From Pontiellaceae bacterium (GTDB taxonomy: Bacteria; Verrucomicrobiota; Kiritimatiellia; Kiritimatiellales; Tichowtungiaceae): 40,918 nucleotides of DNA. Made by a program: the position numbers and the translations under genes. Positions 4,644 to 26,132 of this stretch are shown here, one piece after another. The DNA is taken from positions 1 through 40,918 of the forward strand of contig JAOZSE010000003.1 of assembly GCA_029939835.1 (NCBI GenBank), read 5' to 3'. The notes beneath the pieces are model-generated. The model was given only the letters and a program-made list of their open reading frames with translations. It made no database searches and was not told the origin of the DNA. Positions within the stretch are counted from its first letter, which is position 1; each line of letters starts with the position of its first letter.

Positions 4644-6206
4644 ATGAAACGAAAACGGGTAAAAGTTCTGGTTTTCGGCCTGGTTGCGCTCGCCCTGACA
4701 TGTGCCGGGGCGAAGACGTATCCGCAGAATGTCGTGGACGGCCACGCGTCCGCGCAGATCCAGAAAGACGGGTTTCAGCCTTCGGAACTCTGTTCCGACG
4801 AGGTTTTTGTGCGGCGCGTTTATCTCGATGTGATCGGCACGCTGCCGACCGTCGGCGAAGCCCGGGCTTTTCTCGAACGACCCGGCCGCAGCAAACGGAC
4901 CCGTTTGATTGACGAGCTGATCGCGCGCGACGAGTTCGCACTGTATCTCGGCCTGAAGTGGTGCGACCTGCTGCGGGTGAAGGCGGAGTTTCCGAGTAAT
5001 CTTTGGCCGAATGCGGTACAGGCCTATCACCGATGGGTGGTCGATGCCTTCCGCAATAACATGCCGTACGATCAGTTTGCCCGCGCGCTGCTCACCACAA
5101 GCGGGAGCAACTTTCGCGATCCCCCCGTCAATTTCTACCGCCCGTTCCAGAAGCGCACTCCGCGCAATCTTTTCGAGACCGCCGCCCTCATTTTCATGGG
5201 CATGCGCCTCGAAAAAGCAGAGTTCTCCGAAGAGGAACTGCTTGGAATGGATGCTTTCTTTGCCAAGGTGGCCTACAAGAAGACCGCCGAATGGAAAGAG
5301 GAGATTGTATACTTTGATCCAACCCTGAAGTTTCTTCATCCGGTGACTCAGGAGCCGGTTTCCCCGACACCGCTGAACGGAAAGCCGGTGAAGCTGGGGG
5401 ATCTCGACGACCCGCGCATTGCATTCGCGGACTGGCTGACTGCACCGGACAACCCGTGGTTTTCCAAAGTAATCGTCAACCGGATTTGGCATCAGCTTTT
5501 GGGGCGGGGAATCATCCATGAAGTAGACGATATCCGCCCGGACAACCCCCCGTGGAGTCCGGAACTGCTGGCCTTTTTGGAAAAAGAACTGATCGTCAGC
5601 GGATATGATTTGAAGCACATCTATCGCATTATTCTCAACTCGGACACCTATCAGCGCTCATCGGTCCCGACCCCGGAAAATGCAGCCGATGAGGCCGGGT
5701 TCTCGCATTACCGGATGCGCCGAATGGATGCGGAGGTGTTGATTGATGCTCTCTGTCAGATCACGGGAACATTCGAGGAATATTCCAGCGCCATCCCTGA
5801 GCCGTTTACCTATATTCCTAAAAAACAGCGCTCGATTGCGCTGGCAGACGGGAGCATCAAATCGCCGTTCCTCGAAATGTTCGGACGCCCCGGCCGCGAC
5901 ACCTCCTATGAGTCGGATCGAAACAGTGACGTTTCCGTTTTTCAGTCCCTGCATATGCTCAACTCGTCGCATATTCAGGACAAAATTATGAATAGTCCGC
6001 TCCTGAAAGAACTGTTGCGAACGGAGCGGAATTCGGCCCGGCGACTTGAGGAGCTCTATTTACACATTCTTTCGCGATTCCCGACCGATGAAGAAAAAAA
6101 GACGATTTCAGAGTACCAAAAAACCAGCGGCTTAAATGCCGATCAGGTTGCCTACGATCTGGCGTGGAGTTTGATCAACAGCAAGGAATTTATGTTGCGA
6201 CACTAA
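4644..6206 (+). CDS. Secreted DUF1549/DUF1553 (PSD1) protein
   Basis: A 520-residue exported protein: MKRKRVKVLVFGLVALALTC is a signal peptide. Residues about 35-215 match DUF1549 (EVFVRRVYLDVIGTLPT, RTRLIDELI, PYDQFARALL). Residues about 255-515 match DUF1553 (DPRIAFADWLT, NPWFSKVIVNRIWHQLLGRG, HIYRIILNSDTYQRSS, ELYLHILSRFPT). These proteins abound in Planctomycetes and relatives, usually beside DUF1501 genes as here; their biochemical role is not established. The usual end of DUF1549 carries a Cys/His-rich CAQCHDHP-type motif. Here the equivalent stretch (about 183-205, FMGMRLEKAEF) has no Cys or His. A ribosome site (GAGGGA) precedes the ATG. It is the first gene of a four-gene operon. Confidence 0.88.
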   Translation: MKRKRVKVLVFGLVALALTCAGAKTYPQNVVDGHASAQIQKDGFQPSELCSDEVFVRRVYLDVIGTLPTVGEARAFLERPGRSKRTRLIDELIARDEFALYLGLKWCDLLRVKAEFPSNLWPNAVQAYHRWVVDAFRNNMPYDQFARALLTTSGSNFRDPPVNFYRPFQKRTPRNLFETAALIFMGMRLEKAEFSEEELLGMDAFFAKVAYKKTAEWKEEIVYFDPTLKFLHPVTQEPVSPTPLNGKPVKLGDLDDPRIAFADWLTAPDNPWFSKVIVNRIWHQLLGRGIIHEVDDIRPDNPPWSPELLAFLEKELIVSGYDLKHIYRIILNSDTYQRSSVPTPENAADEAGFSHYRMRRMDAEVLIDALCQITGTFEEYSSAIPEPFTYIPKKQRSIALADGSIKSPFLEMFGRPGRDTSYESDRNSDVSVFQSLHMLNSSHIQDKIMNSPLLKELLRTERNSARRLEELYLHILSRFPTDEEKKTISEYQKTSGLNADQVAYDLAWSLINSKEFMLRH

Positions 6207-6225
6207 GTCGCAAGGAGGTGGAGTC

Positions 6226-7560
6226 ATGAAGAGCAGAAATGGCATCACACGGCGCGACATGCTCAAGCTCAGCACGCTGGGGGCCGCCGGATTAACTTTC
6301 TACGGCGGGCTGGCTTCCAAAGCGCTGGGCGCGGTCAACCCGTTGAAGGCCAAAGCCAAATCGGTGATTCAGATTTGGCTTTGGGGCGGGCCTTCGCATC
6401 TGGACACCTTCGACCCCAAACCCGAAGCGGGTGCCGACTATTGCGGAAAGTACACCAACCCGATTTCCACCAACGTCGATGGCATCCAGATATGTCAGGC
6501 GCTTCCGCAACTCGCCAAAATCGCTGATAAATACGCACTGTTGCGCGGTATGACCCACGGCAACAACGGCCACGAAACGGCCTCGTACATGGTTATGAGC
6601 GGAACCAAGCCTGTCGATGGCGTTGTTAACCCCTCCATGGGATCGGTGGTTTCGCTCAAGAAGGGCTATGATGCGGGCTATACCGGCCTCATTCCACCGT
6701 ATGTCACATTGGTTCGACCTCAGGGCCGTTTTTCCGAAGCGGGCTTCCTCGGCTCGAAATACAAACCGTTTTCCACCGGCGGCAATCCCACTAAAACCCC
6801 GTTTGCTGTCGAGGGGATTGTCGCCAAAGGCATCACCGAAACGCGTCAGAGAAGCCGTCGCGAACTGCTCGGAAATCTCGATACATTCGGGCGGAAAATG
6901 GCCGGTGATCCGTTGGTCGACAAAATGGGTAAAAATAACGAAGAGGCCTATTCGCTGATTCTCGGGGAAGCTAAAAAGACCTTCGACCTTTCGACGGAGG
7001 CCAACGAACTTCGGCAGGCGTACGGGCGCAACAGTTTTCTGGGGCAGTCCTGCCTGCAGGCACGTAAGCTGGTGGAAGCGGGGGTTCCGTTTGTCACCAT
7101 CAACTCCTCTAAATGGGACACCCATAAAAAGCATTTTGAGGCCATGCAGAGCATGCTTCCTGATTTGGATCGGTCAGTCGCCACACTGTTGACCGATCTG
7201 GATCAGCGCGGCCTGCTCGACTCCACCATCGTCTGGGTCGGTGGCGAATTCGGCCGCGGGCCGAAAATTCAGATGGAGGCTCCGTGGAACGGCGGGCGCA
7301 GCCATTATGGCAAGGCCTTCAGCCATCTGGTTGCGGGCGGCGGTTTTCAGGGCGGGCAGGTCGTCGGAGCCACGGACGGACGCGGTGAAAACGTTACCGA
7401 CCGAAAGATATATCCGTGGGATCTCATTGCCAGCATGTATGAACTGCTCGGCATCGACCCGTTTGGAACCTTGCCGCACCCTGAGGGCAAGCTGGCCCAT
7501 GTTTCTCCGCTGGCGGACAGCGGCATCGAAACCGGCGGAATTCTCCGGGAGATTATGTGA
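6226..7560 (+). CDS. DUF1501 protein with Tat signal
   Basis: A 444-residue protein of the DUF1501 family (alkaline-phosphatase-like fold, often called sulfatase-like). The N-terminus has a twin-arginine motif, TRRDMLKLSTLGAAG, so export folded by Tat is expected. Family landmarks are IQIWLWGGPSHLDTFDPKP near residue 46-64, LRGMTHGNNGHE, VTINSSKWDTHKKH, VWVGGEFGRGPKI and GGRSHYGKAFSHLVAGGG. A strong AAGGAGGTGG ribosome site lies just before the ATG. It follows the DUF1549/DUF1553 gene by 19 bases and its stop overlaps the next ATG (TGATG), so the trio is translated together. Substrate is unknown. Confidence 0.92.
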   Translation: MKSRNGITRRDMLKLSTLGAAGLTFYGGLASKALGAVNPLKAKAKSVIQIWLWGGPSHLDTFDPKPEAGADYCGKYTNPISTNVDGIQICQALPQLAKIADKYALLRGMTHGNNGHETASYMVMSGTKPVDGVVNPSMGSVVSLKKGYDAGYTGLIPPYVTLVRPQGRFSEAGFLGSKYKPFSTGGNPTKTPFAVEGIVAKGITETRQRSRRELLGNLDTFGRKMAGDPLVDKMGKNNEEAYSLILGEAKKTFDLSTEANELRQAYGRNSFLGQSCLQARKLVEAGVPFVTINSSKWDTHKKHFEAMQSMLPDLDRSVATLLTDLDQRGLLDSTIVWVGGEFGRGPKIQMEAPWNGGRSHYGKAFSHLVAGGGFQGGQVVGATDGRGENVTDRKIYPWDLIASMYELLGIDPFGTLPHPEGKLAHVSPLADSGIETGGILREIM

Positions 7561-9809
7561 TGAAAAAAATCCTTTTTCTTGTTCTGTTGATCGGGACGAC
7601 GGCGCGTTGCATCGACTTGCCTCACATCGGCTATCTCTATCCGGCGGGTGGGGTGCCCGGCACGACGTTCACGGTGACCGTTGGCGGGCAGCACCTCAAA
7701 AACACTCTCGGCATTCACGTCTCCGGAGCTCAGGTGGTTGCCGAGGTGACGGACTATACCTTCGAGCTCGACCCCAAGGCAGGGAACAAAGCGCGAAGGA
7801 TGAAAGAGAAAATGGAAGCCGCGATGGAGGAAGAAAAGGATCCGCTGCTCCGTGAACAGCTTCAGCATCAGATTGATCTGTCCATGGACACGATGATGAT
7901 GGCAAAGGCGGAGCGAAAGGATCGCAATAAGAACAAGGAGCTGTATGCCAAAAAACAATTCAACCCCCAACTGGCGGACACCCTGACCCTGCAGGTCACG
8001 ATCGATAAGGATGTCGAGCCCGGCGAATACGAATTGCGGGTCATCACCACCAATGGACTTTCCAACCAGCTCATGTTTCAAGTCAGCGGATTGGAAGAGG
8101 TTTTTGAAGCCGAACCCAACAATGAAGTGTCCGATACCGTCGGTTCCGCCCCCGGGCTTCCGCTGCTCCTCAACGGGCAGATCATGCCCGGCGACATTGA
8201 CTGTTTTCGATTCTACGCTGAGCGCGGCGATGATCTCGTTTTCCGTGTGCAGGCTCGCGCACTCGTTCCGTATCTGGCCGACGCCGTACCCGGCTGGTTT
8301 CAGGCCGTCCTCACTCTTTACGACACGGACGGAAAAGAAATCGCCTACATCGATGACTTTCGTTTCGATCCCGATCCCGTCCTGATCTGTCAGGTGCCCG
8401 AAAACGGTGAGTACGTTTTGGAAATCCGCGACTCCATCTACCGCGGCCGCCGCGACTTTGTCTATCGAATCGCCATGGGCAATCTGCCGTTTATTGATCA
8501 CATCTTTCCACTCGGCGGCCCGGAAAACAGCGAGGTCCCCGTCCAGCTCTACGGCGTGAACCTGCCGAAGAAAAACATTATTCTGAAAACATCCGGCAAC
8601 GCCCCCGAAACACAGAAGATTGCGGTGGGGCAAGGGGCGAAGCGTTCGAATACCCGTCCGTTCGGAGTGGATCTGCTTCCCGAGGTCTTTGAGGCCGAGC
8701 CCAACAACCTGCCGTTTCAGGCGCAGACTATCGAAGAAAGCCTTGTCATCAACGGCCGCATCGAAAAGCCCGGCGACTACGACTGCTTTCGTTTTGAGGG
8801 CCAAAGAGGGGATCCCCTTTCGATTGAGGTGTTCGCCCGCCGCCTCGATTCGCCGCTCGACGCTCGTCTGGTTCTTCTCGATCCGGAGGAGCACATTCTG
8901 GCCATCAGCGACGATGAAGTGGATCGCGGAGCGGGGCTGGTTACCCACCACGCCGATTCCCTTCTGAATGTTGAACTGCCGAAGAGCGGAGCCTACATCA
9001 TCCGCCTCGACGACCTGCAAGGGAAGGGCGGTCATGAATATGCCTATCGCCTGCGTATCGGCAAAGAGCAACCCGACTACAGCCTGCGCGTTGTTCCCTC
9101 CAGCCTCAACATTCCGCTGGAGGGCAGCGCCGTCATCACCGTGCACGCCTTGCGCAAAGTCGGCTTTGATGGCCCGATTGAGCTGACCCTCAAAAATGCG
9201 CCGGAGGGAATCAGCCTCAACCGCGCCATCATTCCCGCCGGGGCGGATAAAACACAGGTGACTCTTTTTGCCGAGGAACGTGATGTGGATGAGTTGATGG
9301 GGCTTGATATTGAAGGAGCGGCCCGCATCAAAACACGTGACGTGCGCCGACCGGCCGTGCCCGCCGACGATATGATGCAGGCCTTCCTTTGGCGCCATCT
9401 CGTTTCTGCACAGGAACTGCTCCTTCGCGTCACCGAGCCGTTGCCCATTTCCGTCAAACTCGACCTGCCGAAGGAGGGGATTGCTGAGGCCCGCCCCGGC
9501 GAAGAAATCCGGATTACCGGGAAGGTTTTCAGGCAGGAGGGATTCAAGGGGAATCTCAGGCTTACCCTTTCCGATGCGCCCGAATGGATCACCCTGAAAA
9601 GTAAAAATTTTGGATGGAGAAACAGTGCAATTATTTTACTGGTCAGCGAGGAAGCTCCGCCCGGTGCCTTTGAAAGCCTCGTTTTGAACGCATCTTTTGG
9701 CGTTTCAAAATCCAAAGATGACCCCACCTACAATCCCATCCTCAAATGGTTGAACCGCAAAACCTGCAATTTTACCATTGGCGCCATCCCTATACAGATT
9801 AGCGAGTGA
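7560..9809 (+). CDS. Secreted PPC-domain / Ig-like protein
   Basis: A 749-residue exported protein (signal MKKILFLVLLIGTTARC). A TIG/IPT-like module at about 20-65 (IGYLYPAGGVPGTTF) is followed by a charged helical segment at about 78-135. Two bacterial pre-peptidase C-terminal (PPC) domains each begin EVFEAEPNN, at about 180-300 and 375-500. A second TIG-like module lies between them (IDHIFPLGGPENSEVPV), and Ig-like beta-rich sequence fills 500-749. Such proteins sit beside DUF1501/PSD1 genes in PVC bacteria; a role in carbohydrate or surface binding is plausible but unproven. A GTG at 7557 is an alternative start; the ATG overlapping the upstream TGA is preferred. Confidence 0.88.
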   Translation: MKKILFLVLLIGTTARCIDLPHIGYLYPAGGVPGTTFTVTVGGQHLKNTLGIHVSGAQVVAEVTDYTFELDPKAGNKARRMKEKMEAAMEEEKDPLLREQLQHQIDLSMDTMMMAKAERKDRNKNKELYAKKQFNPQLADTLTLQVTIDKDVEPGEYELRVITTNGLSNQLMFQVSGLEEVFEAEPNNEVSDTVGSAPGLPLLLNGQIMPGDIDCFRFYAERGDDLVFRVQARALVPYLADAVPGWFQAVLTLYDTDGKEIAYIDDFRFDPDPVLICQVPENGEYVLEIRDSIYRGRRDFVYRIAMGNLPFIDHIFPLGGPENSEVPVQLYGVNLPKKNIILKTSGNAPETQKIAVGQGAKRSNTRPFGVDLLPEVFEAEPNNLPFQAQTIEESLVINGRIEKPGDYDCFRFEGQRGDPLSIEVFARRLDSPLDARLVLLDPEEHILAISDDEVDRGAGLVTHHADSLLNVELPKSGAYIIRLDDLQGKGGHEYAYRLRIGKEQPDYSLRVVPSSLNIPLEGSAVITVHALRKVGFDGPIELTLKNAPEGISLNRAIIPAGADKTQVTLFAEERDVDELMGLDIEGAARIKTRDVRRPAVPADDMMQAFLWRHLVSAQELLLRVTEPLPISVKLDLPKEGIAEARPGEEIRITGKVFRQEGFKGNLRLTLSDAPEWITLKSKNFGWRNSAIILLVSEEAPPGAFESLVLNASFGVSKSKDDPTYNPILKWLNRKTCNFTIGAIPIQISE

Positions 9810-19775: not shown

Positions 19776-20159
19776 ATGATGAAGCGGATATTGATTGTGG
19801 ATGACCAGCAGGCGATCTGCACGATGGTGCGGGCCATGTTCGAGGACAACGACGACTACCGTTTCGCTGAGGCTCACGACGGGGTTGAGGCGCAGGCGCT
19901 GGTAGACAAGGAGTCTTTTGATCTGGTGATTACTGACGTGATCATGCCCGACTGCGACGGGATTGAGCTGATCATGACGCTCTTCCGCAAGCACCCCGAT
20001 CTGAAAATAATTGTCATTTCCGGCGGCGGCCGGGTACGGGCGGAGCACTACCTTAATCTGGCGGAAAAACTGGGGGCCACCTGCGTCTTTGAAAAACCGC
20101 TTGATCCTGTCAAATTCCGGAAAACCGTCGAAGAACTGCTCAACGAACCATCTGCTTAG
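19776..20159 (+). CDS. Single-domain response regulator receiver
   Basis: The 127 residues are a CheY-like receiver with no output domain. The acidic pair is in ILIVDDQQ, the phospho-accepting Asp is in LVITDVIMPDCDG, the switch Ser in IVISGGG and the conserved Lys in CVFEKPLDP. A strong AGGGGAGGG ribosome site precedes the tandem ATGs at 19776/19779. It lies 11 bases after ribE and 8 bases before pyrE, so it is probably co-transcribed with metabolic genes. No complete kinase is nearby; the large PAS protein at 21717 lacks a phosphorylatable His. Its partner is unknown. Confidence 0.92.
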   Translation: MMKRILIVDDQQAICTMVRAMFEDNDDYRFAEAHDGVEAQALVDKESFDLVITDVIMPDCDGIELIMTLFRKHPDLKIIVISGGGRVRAEHYLNLAEKLGATCVFEKPLDPVKFRKTVEELLNEPSA

Positions 20160-21716: not shown

Positions 21717-24700
21717 ATGGATTTGCTCGGGATCATTTCAAACCTGACACCGCTTCGGATGGCCGCGGTCATTGTGGCGGGTATCACCGGACTTCTTCTG
21801 CTCGTCTCACTCATACTTTTGTTTATCTACCGGACACGGTTCAATAAGGCGCGGGAGCAGTGCCTGACCCTCAGGCCTGAACTGAAGCTCACGCAGGATC
21901 GTTTGGGCGAAACGACGGTTCATCTGGACAATACAACGCGCAAACTTGAGGAGACTCTCTATCGGCAGCAGAGTTTGCAGGATGAAGCCGTCGCGGGCAT
22001 TTTCAGAATGGATCGAGCCGGCGACTTTACCTATATCAATTCAAAGCTGGCTGGATTGTGCGGCATGACCTCCCAGCAGGTTCTGCGCGAAGGGCTGACA
22101 CAGGCCGTTCATCCGGAAGACCGGGAACGGGTGCGCGCGGAGTGGAATGTCCTGAAGGATCGGCAGGAGCCGTTCTGCTCGACGTTTCGTTTTTTGCGAA
22201 CCGACGACAGCGAAGTCACCGTAATCTGCCAAATGTACGCGGTGAAAGGTTCAGACCAAGCCGTTGCGGATTATGTCGGGCTGATCACAGATGTCACGGA
22301 ACTGCACAATGAGTACGCTGTGTTCAGGGACGGTGAGCGGCGTACCAATTCGTTTATCGAGGCGGCGGCAGGCGGTTTTTACCAGTTGATTCCGGACGAG
22401 CCGATTGCGGTGGACGGCGAGCCGAATAAGATCGCGGAGCAGATTTATAAGAGCATGTCGCTCGCATCGTGCAACAGCCCCTTTGCGGAGCTTTACGACC
22501 AACCGGAAAATGAACTGGCCGGAGCGCGGCTGGATGCGCTGCCGGGCGGGTGCGGGCCGTTTACTGATCTGGAAAGCGTGAAGGCCTTCGTTAAGGCGGG
22601 CTTTAAATTTTTGGAAACCGAGACGGTCCGAAAGGATCACCGGGGAAATCATCTGTGCCTTCAGAATCATGCCGTAGGCATCGTGGAGGACGGGCATCTG
22701 GTTGGTATCTGGGGGACGCAGCGCGATTTCAGCCGGCAGAAACGGGAGGCGGAGGCGCTGGACAGCCGGTTGCAGTTCCTCGAAAAAATACTGAACACCT
22801 TGCCGGGGGATGTGCTGGTTAAAGATACAAGGTGCCGCTTTCTTTATGTGAACCCGGGCATGGCCGAACGGACCGGTATTCCGGTGGAAGACTGGATTGG
22901 CAAAACCGTTTTTGAGCTGATGCCGGCCACGCCGCGCGACTTTAATAAAAACAGCATCGAAGTGATGAAGACCGGCGAGATGAGCCGCACGGTCGGGCCT
23001 TATGAAACGCCGGACGGCACGGGCTGGGCGGAAGCGTTCGAGATTCCCCTGGCCGGCAGCGAGGGTTTGATTGAGGGGGCGGTAAGCCTGTCGCTGGAAG
23101 TCACTGACCGCGTGAATGCGGAACTGGCACTTCAGAAATCGGAAGAGCAGTTCCGGAGCCTGATGGAAGGTTGCCCGGACGGGATCATCCTGGCGGATGC
23201 AGAATCGAAGAAGCTGACTTATGCCAACCCGGCGATGTGCGACTTTATCGGCTACACCGCGCCGGAACTGCTGGATATGCGTATCGCCGATATTCATCCT
23301 CCGGGCTCACGGAGGCAGGTCAGCGACGAATTTGCAGATCGGGCGCGCCACGGACAGAAGTTTGAGGAACCTATGGTGTGCCTGCGGAAGGATCGTTCCA
23401 TGGTCTTTGCCGATATCGGCGCGTCCATGGTGTGGATTAACGGCAAGGAACACATCATCGGGGTTTACGGCGATGCCACGGAACGGAAAAAAGCCGAAAC
23501 CGCCCTGAACGAGCAGAACGAACAGTATGCGAACATCGTCCGTCATGCACCGGCGCTTTTCGCCGTGGTTAATTACGGAGGCACGGTTCAATCCATGAAT
23601 GATGCCCTGCTGGAAAAACTCGGCTATGCGGAAGATGAACTGATTGGAATGCCGTATGTATCCACGCTGGTTGCCGAATCAGACCAAAACAAACTGGCTG
23701 ACGCCTTTTCGGCGGTGAGCGGTACGGAAGAGGCGGAGTATGAATACCGGCTTTTGACCAAAGGCGGGGAAGAAATTCTCGTGGAGTCTCACATCAGGCC
23801 GCATTTCGATAAAGACGGCAAACTGGTTTCGTTTTCCATGGTCGCGCTGGACATCACGAAGCGCCGGAAGCTCGAAGAGCAGATGAAAGACTGCTGCGAC
23901 CGGCTTCAGGAACAGCTCGCCCGGCGCACGGCCGATCTCGAAAAACTTGAAGCGGGCCGGCAGGAGGAAGCTGAGCAGTCGCTTCAGCAGGCTGCGGCGG
24001 AACTGGAGGAGCTTTCCCGTAAGCATGAAGAAGAACTCGCGCGGGAAATCCGTAAGCGGAGGGAAATCGAAGAACGGCTGCGGCAGAGCAAAAATGAGCT
24101 GAACCGCTGCAAAGAACAGTTGGATGCCTCGATTGAGCAGCGCACACAGGCGCTCGAAGATGAAATTGCCATGCGGCAGAAACGGGAAGAGCGGCTGCTG
24201 CAGAACGAGTCCGATCTGAACCAGTACCGCACGGAGCTGGAAGCCTCGCTGGAACAGCGCACGCAGGAGCTCGAAAAGCAGGTTGAGGAGCGGAAAGCCT
24301 CCGAGGAAGATCTCAAGGAAATGCGCAAGGAGCTGAAAAACCTCAGCGGCGCCCAGAAGGAACTGCTTGCCGGACAGACGCAGGAGCTCAAGGCGCAGAT
24401 TGCGGAAACCAAAAAAACGGAGGCATATCTGCGGCAGCAGGAAAAAGAACTTCAGCAGAAGCAGGGCGATCTGGAAGCACAGATTAAGCAGCGGACGCAA
24501 GAGCTGTCAGAAGAATCCGCCGACCGCAAGAAAACAGAGGAAGATCTGCAGCGGATGCAGTCGGAACTGCAGGAATTCCGGGAACAGCAGGAGAGCCTGA
24601 TTGCTCGGGAAACCGAAGCGTTGAATGTGGAGATCGGCGAGTATAAAAAAACGGAAGAAGCCCTGCGCCGGAACGAAAGCGTTTTGCGCTCACGCGCCGC

Positions 24701-26132
24701 CCAGCTGGAAGCGCTGGTTGAGAAGCGGACTAAGGAACTGGAGCAGGCCCGGCAGGAACAGGAGACCGCTGAACTGGCGCTGACGCAGAAGCAGGTCGAG
24801 CTCACCAAACTCAGCACGGAAGTGGATGAAAAAATAGCCGGGCAGGTTCGGGAATATCAGCAGGAAATTGAAGGCCTCAGGCAGGAGGAACAACTCCTGA
24901 AACGCAGTGAAAACCATTACCGGCAGCTGTTCGAATCTTCCGCGGAAGCCTTCCTGATACTGGAGACGGAAACCGGGGAAATTAACAAAGCCAACCCGGC
25001 CGCCGTTGAACTTTTCGGCGCAGAAGCCGAAGACCGGCTGATCGGCCAGTCATTGGATACGCTTTCGCCCGACGCGCAGCCGGACGGAGGTCCTTCGTCC
25101 AGACTCGCCCTCAAGCATATTCAGTGCGCCTATGAAGAAGAGAATGATGCCTTTGAGTGGCTTTACCGTAAACCCGACGGAACCGTATTCTTCGGGCTGA
25201 CCTCCCTGACGGCGATTGAAGAAGACGGGCGGCATCAGGTGCTGGCTGCGATCAGCAATATTGAGCCGATTAAAAAAGATCAGGAACAGCTCCGGCAGGC
25301 CAAAGACAACGCCGAAGAGGTCAGTCGGGCCAACAGCCGTTTTGTGGCCGACATGCAGGAGGCCATGTGCTCTTCGCTGGATCCGGTTGTGGAAATCTCC
25401 GCGGCCATTATGAACGCTTCCAACCTGTCCGATGATCAGCGGGAACAGCTGGCCGGGATTAACCGTAACAGCACCGAACTGCTGGAAATGATGAACAACC
25501 GGCTGGAACTGGAACGCATGGCCGCCGGGACGGTTCAGGCGGAAGCGGCACCGTTTGATTTGTATGCCTTCATCACGGAGATGAACGCGAAATTCTGCGA
25601 CAAGGCCAAAAACAAGAGTCTCTTCTTTGCTATGAGTCATGCCCACAATGTTTCCCGGCAGATCACAGCCGACCGGCGAAAGCTGCGCAAGGTGCTGGGC
25701 ACCCTGCTGGAGTATGCCATCGGCCAAACGGACAAAGGCCGGCTGGGCGTGCATGCCACAAGCGAAGAACTCGGCGACCGTAAGGAAAAAATCACATTTG
25801 AACTGGCGTACACCGGGCGCAATGCGCACGACACCATCCTTACCAGGGTATTGAGCCATGAAGATCTGCTGGAGAAGGAAGACAGCGATGTCACCGGCGT
25901 GGAGCTCGGGTTGGCCATCAGCCGGCGCTATGCACAGATACTGGGCGGTGACATCACGCTGGAAAGCCGCCCCGGAAATGTCAGTCTGCTGAAATTCGGC
26001 ATCACCGCTGAAGTCGATAAATCCGCCGAACCCGAACCTGAGCCCGAACCTGAAAAAGACCGCCCGCGGCCTGTTTCCAGAGAGCCGGTACTGGCTGTGG
26101 AAGATCACGATGTCTGGTCGCGTCGTAAATAA
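21717..26132 (+). CDS. Multi-PAS sensor with degenerate histidine-kinase core
   Basis: A 1471-residue protein. One membrane segment lies at about 15-38. Six PAS or PAS-like domains follow at roughly 88-205, 210-345 (atypical), 352-470, 475-595, 600-725 and 1063-1185. Between PAS 5 and 6 is a long coiled coil with seven exact 39-residue repeats (769-1041). The end resembles HisKA plus HATPase, but the H-box SHE is QEA (Glu1215 for His), the N-box Asn is Tyr1333 and the DxG Asp is Tyr1365; only the G2-like GVELGLAIS is retained. Autophosphorylation therefore looks impossible. An EPEPEPEPE linker precedes VLAVEDHD, which resembles the first strand of a receiver, then a stop. A sigma-54 type promoter is upstream. 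Confidence 0.9.
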   Translation: MDLLGIISNLTPLRMAAVIVAGITGLLLLVSLILLFIYRTRFNKAREQCLTLRPELKLTQDRLGETTVHLDNTTRKLEETLYRQQSLQDEAVAGIFRMDRAGDFTYINSKLAGLCGMTSQQVLREGLTQAVHPEDRERVRAEWNVLKDRQEPFCSTFRFLRTDDSEVTVICQMYAVKGSDQAVADYVGLITDVTELHNEYAVFRDGERRTNSFIEAAAGGFYQLIPDEPIAVDGEPNKIAEQIYKSMSLASCNSPFAELYDQPENELAGARLDALPGGCGPFTDLESVKAFVKAGFKFLETETVRKDHRGNHLCLQNHAVGIVEDGHLVGIWGTQRDFSRQKREAEALDSRLQFLEKILNTLPGDVLVKDTRCRFLYVNPGMAERTGIPVEDWIGKTVFELMPATPRDFNKNSIEVMKTGEMSRTVGPYETPDGTGWAEAFEIPLAGSEGLIEGAVSLSLEVTDRVNAELALQKSEEQFRSLMEGCPDGIILADAESKKLTYANPAMCDFIGYTAPELLDMRIADIHPPGSRRQVSDEFADRARHGQKFEEPMVCLRKDRSMVFADIGASMVWINGKEHIIGVYGDATERKKAETALNEQNEQYANIVRHAPALFAVVNYGGTVQSMNDALLEKLGYAEDELIGMPYVSTLVAESDQNKLADAFSAVSGTEEAEYEYRLLTKGGEEILVESHIRPHFDKDGKLVSFSMVALDITKRRKLEEQMKDCCDRLQEQLARRTADLEKLEAGRQEEAEQSLQQAAAELEELSRKHEEELAREIRKRREIEERLRQSKNELNRCKEQLDASIEQRTQALEDEIAMRQKREERLLQNESDLNQYRTELEASLEQRTQELEKQVEERKASEEDLKEMRKELKNLSGAQKELLAGQTQELKAQIAETKKTEAYLRQQEKELQQKQGDLEAQIKQRTQELSEESADRKKTEEDLQRMQSELQEFREQQESLIARETEALNVEIGEYKKTEEALRRNESVLRSRAAQLEALVEKRTKELEQARQEQETAELALTQKQVELTKLSTEVDEKIAGQVREYQQEIEGLRQEEQLLKRSENHYRQLFESSAEAFLILETETGEINKANPAAVELFGAEAEDRLIGQSLDTLSPDAQPDGGPSSRLALKHIQCAYEEENDAFEWLYRKPDGTVFFGLTSLTAIEEDGRHQVLAAISNIEPIKKDQEQLRQAKDNAEEVSRANSRFVADMQEAMCSSLDPVVEISAAIMNASNLSDDQREQLAGINRNSTELLEMMNNRLELERMAAGTVQAEAAPFDLYAFITEMNAKFCDKAKNKSLFFAMSHAHNVSRQITADRRKLRKVLGTLLEYAIGQTDKGRLGVHATSEELGDRKEKITFELAYTGRNAHDTILTRVLSHEDLLEKEDSDVTGVELGLAISRRYAQILGGDITLESRPGNVSLLKFGITAEVDKSAEPEPEPEPEKDRPRPVSREPVLAVEDHDVWSRRK
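24021..24839 (+). repeat. Seven tandem 117-base coding repeats (39 residues each)
   Basis: Each unit begins with a variant of QRTQELE (KHEEELA, QRTQALE, QRTQELE, GQTQELK, QRTQELS, RETEALN, KRTKELE) exactly 39 residues apart and contains RKKTEEDL-like and ELxxLRxxLE segments. A partial eighth (GQVREYQ) leads into the last PAS domain. DNA identity between units is modest, so this is an old duplication. Confidence 0.85.

Follow-up and report, generated by a model that had tools for sequence, protein, structure and literature searches.

An order-wide conserved pseudo-histidine-kinase that may act as a phosphotransfer-free docking or allosteric module

Within the window, i.e., the whole stretch of 40,918 nucleotides that was analyzed, an open reading frame of 1471 aa (21717..26132, + strand) encodes a protein with a transmembrane helix, a PAS array, a coiled coil, a last PAS domain and a pseudo-histidine-kinase that is conserved across the order Kiritimatiellales, to which this uncultured bacterium belongs. 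On balance, we favor the view that this C-terminal domain is a docking or allosteric module that works without phosphotransfer. Relatives throughout the order share the loss of catalytic residues and have preserved it, so that the domain is probably a functional module for protein binding and not an enzyme in decay.

Architecture and predicted fold

All features of the protein lie on the + strand. An N-terminal transmembrane helix (approximately residues 15-38, 21759..21830), read off the translation as a hydrophobic stretch, is followed by an array of about five PAS domains assigned to Pfam PAS families (approximately residues 85-717, 21969..23867) and by a long helical region rich in E, Q, K, R and L and devoid of proline, which is probably a coiled coil as judged from the composition of residues 715-1065 (23868..24896). 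A final PAS domain, recognized by Pfam and from the sequence (24912..25265), precedes the pseudo-histidine-kinase with its DHp and CA parts (residues 1190-1433, 25284..26015), and the protein ends in a divergent tail (26022..26132), the counterpart of which in Pontiellaceae terminates in -GAA. The translation of 21717-26132 contained no large periplasmic domain, and no Pfam match to Response_reg was obtained for the window protein or for six scanned orthologues, one of which leaves its contig while another is a natural truncation. The string VLAVEDHDVW at the C-terminus of the window protein was considered as the relic of a receiver and dismissed as a chance resemblance: the downstream frames held no receiver continuation and the orthologues lacked a receiver. 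One orthologue of the same kind (L032 1-735, - strand, in G007) has an extension of about 240 aa beyond the pseudokinase, which matched no Pfam family and reaches the contig edge.

The DHp and CA fold is predicted with confidence to be retained. The AlphaFold2 model computed from the 21-row alignment (pLDDT 87.8, pTM 0.79) displays two DHp helices and an alpha/beta CA layer, and the best Foldseek matches of this model were GacS (7z8n, E 3.3e-18) and RetS (6dk7, TM about 0.77), with TM values ranging from about 0.74 to 0.78 and with DivL (4q20) matched at a lower rank. The profile search of the PDB likewise returned RetS (E 1.2e-22) and DivL 4q20 (E 3.9e-10), with two other histidine kinase entries similarly placed, and phytochrome A was matched by both approaches. 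Pfam HATPase_c barely passed the cut-off on the window protein (E 7.5e-6); together with the AlphaFold2 model, it supports a retention of the fold over about 240 residues, where the initial annotation had given about 230.

Loss of the catalytic residues, its age and its maintenance

The initial annotation had read the His of the H-box, the Asn of the N-box and the Asp of G1 as replaced by Glu1215 (25359..25361), Tyr1333 (25713..25715) and Tyr1365 (25809..25811), respectively, and an alignment with L002 and 34 other kinases confirmed that reading. L002, the canonical hybrid kinase of the window genome itself, shares 26% identity with the DHp-CA region of the pseudokinase and carries the motifs HMSHELRTPMNG, ISNALKFT and VADTGIG at the three aligned sites. 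The loss was wider than initially described: the Glu, Arg and Pro of the H-box, the first Asn as well as the Lys and Phe of the N-box, the second Gly of G1 and most of the G2 glycines are gone as well. In none of the 21 pseudokinase domains was the phospho-acceptor His present, its position being occupied by Glu (13), Asp (4), Gly (2), Arg (1) or Thr (1), which makes it the least conserved of the three replaced sites. Similarly, the N-box Asn, a Mg2+ ligand, was found in 0/21 domains (Tyr in 18, His in 3), and so was the G1 Asp of DxGxG, which contacts adenine (Tyr in 20, Phe in 1), with the second Gly absent in 21/21. Each of the three residues was present in 35/35 canonical kinases from the same genomes. 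The segment GVELGLAIS (25896..25922), described before as G2-like, is a degenerate G2 by alignment and only partly deserves the name: with reference to GxGLGL, the Gly at +4 and the Leu at +5 were kept in 18/21 and 21/21 domains, while the Gly at +2 was missing from all 21 and the first position was variable (Asp in 15, Gly in 3, Glu in 3).

Besides these losses, the clade has near-invariant residues of its own that are rare in canonical kinases, namely Pro1223, Glu1264, Phe1304, Ser1307, Gly1344 and His1346 (21/21 each) as well as Arg1262 and Tyr1405 (20/21 each). Several of them fall on alternating strand positions, a spacing that would be compatible with an exposed face of the sheet. A cryptic activity, with the domain binding another ligand or using a non-canonical phospho-acceptor, e.g., by Tyr/Glu chemistry, appears improbable to us. 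The conserved pair Tyr1333/Tyr1365 could indeed bind a different small molecule, but the Mg2+/ATP ligands of the N-box and G1, the G2 glycines and the Arg and Pro of the H-box have all been lost, and the H position varies among Glu, Asp, Gly, Arg and Thr.

Orthologous domains were found in 20 further sequences, three from the same genus and 17 from Pontiellaceae, the sister family, among them that of Pontiella sulfatireligans; the Pontiellaceae loci (L084-L100) were added by a profile search of the order. The initial annotation had left the conservation of the substitutions among orthologues to be checked, and they proved to be conserved order-wide in 21 domains, the three orthologues of the same genus each combining Glu at the His site with an N-box His and a G1 Tyr. 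The gene is present in only 4/14 genomes of the genus of the window. Against the 35 canonical kinases, the 21 domains formed one clade (SH-aLRT 100). Pairwise dN/dS (NG86) ranged from 0.06 to 0.16 for the domain and from 0.09 to 0.13 for the PAS1-2 part; both ranges are approximate since dS was high in several pairs. The PAS1-2 region (residues 95-461), used as the query across the order, matched strongly in 25 genomes, each with a single match apart from G025 with two pieces, and led to no orthologue with an intact kinase; the genomes positive for PAS1-2 and without a match to the domain were checked, among them G014, whose locus reaches the contig edge. In G025, the frame of the orthologue (L099 7637-11823, - strand) is broken inside the PAS array, leaving two ORFs and a match interrupted by one TGA. 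Outside the order, the pseudokinase domain was not found at E <= 1e-38 among the sampled genomes (288 of the class, 388 of the phylum). A single-sequence scan of genome contigs confirmed no relative.

As judged from the aligned sequences, the catalytic signatures were already lost when the two families diverged, and the domain is kept by purifying selection. The loss is old and maintained, with a single event as the simplest account, because the replacements are shared, the domains form one clade, dN/dS is low, no intact relative was found and the domain was not found outside the order in the sampled genomes. Recent decay or a sequencing error in a low-quality assembly has next to no probability, although the assembly of the window genome is fragmented and 87% complete and the tail of the window protein is divergent: comparable replacements were seen in 20 more genomes, among them the single-contig G001 and named records, and dN/dS is far below 1. 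This explanation was rejected on the grounds of the 20 orthologues and the low dN/dS, and the recent decay for which the initial annotation had allowed does not apply, no orthologue with an intact histidine kinase having been found.

Gene neighborhood, natural deletions and the C-terminal tail

In Pontiellaceae the gene resides in a conserved block (e.g., locus L098, 6856-15475) with an upstream, probably secreted protein that has a C-terminal hydrophobic segment, a downstream GH18 protein and two divergently encoded proteins without a Pfam match. The upstream protein and one of the divergently encoded proteins co-occur with the PAS-pseudokinase gene in Pontiellaceae, and neither was found in the genus of the window. 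The neighbors in the window differ from the Pontiellaceae block and comprise riboflavin genes, a receiver, a phosphoribosyltransferase and Rex. In the window, a gene trio encoding PSCyt/DUF1553, DUF1501 and PPC proteins (4644-9809) is separated from the pseudokinase gene by 12 kb. In Pontiellaceae the distance is about 4 kb, and the arrangement in the window may be what is left of an old linkage.

The orphan receiver at 19776, put forward in the initial annotation as a possible partner, did not hold up. Pairing of the pseudokinase with this receiver (19776-20159) is very improbable, and a role as dedicated partner is not credible. Pfam classes it as a canonical receiver, and it is encoded on the same strand about 1.5 kb upstream of the pseudokinase ORF in the window, but its orthologues occur in 11/14 genomes of the genus, mostly those without the pseudokinase, and it was not found in most of the pseudokinase-bearing Pontiellaceae, where only two genomes were matched, and weakly. 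Moreover, the two genes are about 557 kb apart in G001, so that the distribution profile does not match and the genes are unlinked in that genome.

The pseudokinase domain is useful but dispensable in some lineages. It is not indispensable because two members of the Pontiellaceae have lost it outright: the ORF in G028 (L131 4748-7591, + strand) ends at 948 aa and that in G027 (L132 10481-13573, - strand) at 1031 aa, and the six frames contained no remnant of the domain in either case. These deletions support the main rival to the docking model, a pure structural cap, according to which the pseudokinase would serve the dimerization or stability of the PAS/coiled-coil rod and have no kinase or receiver partner, the output passing through the PAS array, the coiled coil or the tail. 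Both proteins keep the PAS array and the coiled coil without the domain, and the protein of G028 retains the C-terminal AGAA, as this account would have it. In addition, no histidine kinase or receiver recurs directly beside the gene among its neighbors in Pontiellaceae, where the recurring genes are those of the block described above. However, the domain is constrained as strongly as the PAS part according to dN/dS, and the near-invariant residues particular to the CA part go beyond the needs of a DHp dimer cap. We thus regard the cap as a serious but rather unlikely alternative.

The -GAA ending, mostly -AGAA, was found in 17/17 Pontiellaceae orthologues (L084-L100) and in 0/284 other stop-terminated frames of at least 200 aa in those loci. 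It may represent a putative ClpX-like degron, which is possible because tmRNA tags of these bacteria end in ALAA/AMAA. A more elaborate scenario, which we put forward tentatively, would combine this tail with the replaced residues: in order-specific nucleotide-free pseudokinases, the Tyr/Tyr pair would plug the ATP pocket, the CA part would be a protein-binding platform and the ssrA-like -AGAA degron would set the level of the Pontiellaceae protein.

Proposed mode of action and comparison with known systems

Following the preferred reading of a docking or allosteric module, we propose a sensor tethered to the membrane, with a PAS array that would read cytosolic cues. The PAS inputs would alter the coiled coil and the DHp dimer, and the signal would thereby reach the C-terminal pseudokinase. 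As the putative domain would neither bind ATP nor carry phosphate, the signal would leave it by conformation and contact. Tyr1333 and Tyr1365 probably occupy or stabilize the vacated nucleotide pocket. A partner may bind to the DHp helices and to the surface of the CA part; the likeliest candidates are canonical hybrid histidine kinases and receivers whose genes lie elsewhere, and the activity of the bound partner would be biased without phosphotransfer, by analogy with DivL acting on CckA/DivK and RetS acting on GacS. Against this reading stand the two natural losses of the domain, the variability of the H position and the presence of the gene in only 4/14 genomes of the genus. The scaffold or partner role that the initial annotation had suggested for the domain would fit this scheme. 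We infer the partner, the direction of the effect and the signal from DivL (PMC4211667) and from RetS and ChrS (PMC12189002, PMC9491836); the ChrS pseudokinase and RetS provide precedents (PMC9491836).

The claim that the window holds an undescribed signaling arrangement was overstated, as DivL and other pseudo-histidine-kinases have been described before (PMC4211667). The novelty lies in the clade as such, in the Tyr/Tyr replacement conserved within it and in the C-terminal -GAA of Pontiellaceae: a search of the open-access literature found neither the clade nor the Tyr/Tyr pattern nor any such protein from Kiritimatiellota. To our knowledge, few bacterial pseudo-histidine-kinases have been characterized. 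The 21 domains with an old loss of all chemistry that are still under selection, together with the two natural domain deletions, form a natural series in which the function left to a histidine kinase fold deprived of phosphotransfer can be tested. Among cultured species, at least Pontiella sulfatireligans F21 (NZ_CAAHFH010000002.1; locus L093, G042:C2) carries the gene, and Tichowtungia aerotolerans, P. desulfatans and P. agarivorans probably do so as well.

DivL from Caulobacter resembles the window protein in combining PAS domains with a DHp-CA region in which the phospho-acceptor His is replaced. It has no autokinase activity and works by binding, although it still binds TNP-ATP weakly, at 57 uM (PMC4211667). 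By contrast, DivL has Tyr at the His site, where the pseudokinase clade has Glu, Asp, Gly, Arg or Thr and Tyr in 0/21 domains, whereas the clade mostly has Tyr in place of the N-box Asn and the G1 Asp; the phylum differs too, and no CckA/DivK neighbors were seen. The closest solved relative is RetS/GacS, which scored above DivL by profile and by fold. Unlike the pseudokinase clade, which has lost all three residues, RetS has in its aligned region an intact His (SHEIRTP) and N-box Asn (LLDNAF) as well as an Asp in G1 (VQDSG). It further possesses receiver and periplasmic parts, which were not found in the window protein. Regulation of GacS by RetS proceeds through heterodimerization (PMC12189002).

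Subfamily-II ethylene receptors and the kinase-related domains of plant phytochromes are likewise degenerate histidine-kinase-like output domains kept in evolution, as described for the degenerate ETR2 (PMC10968091). Within the order itself, the HisKA-HATPase_c hybrid kinases such as L002 have a homologous DHp-CA region with intact catalytic boxes, from which the pseudokinases are set apart as a separate clade. Ethylene receptors and plant phytochromes, for their part, are eukaryotic, have other input domains and have lost different residues.
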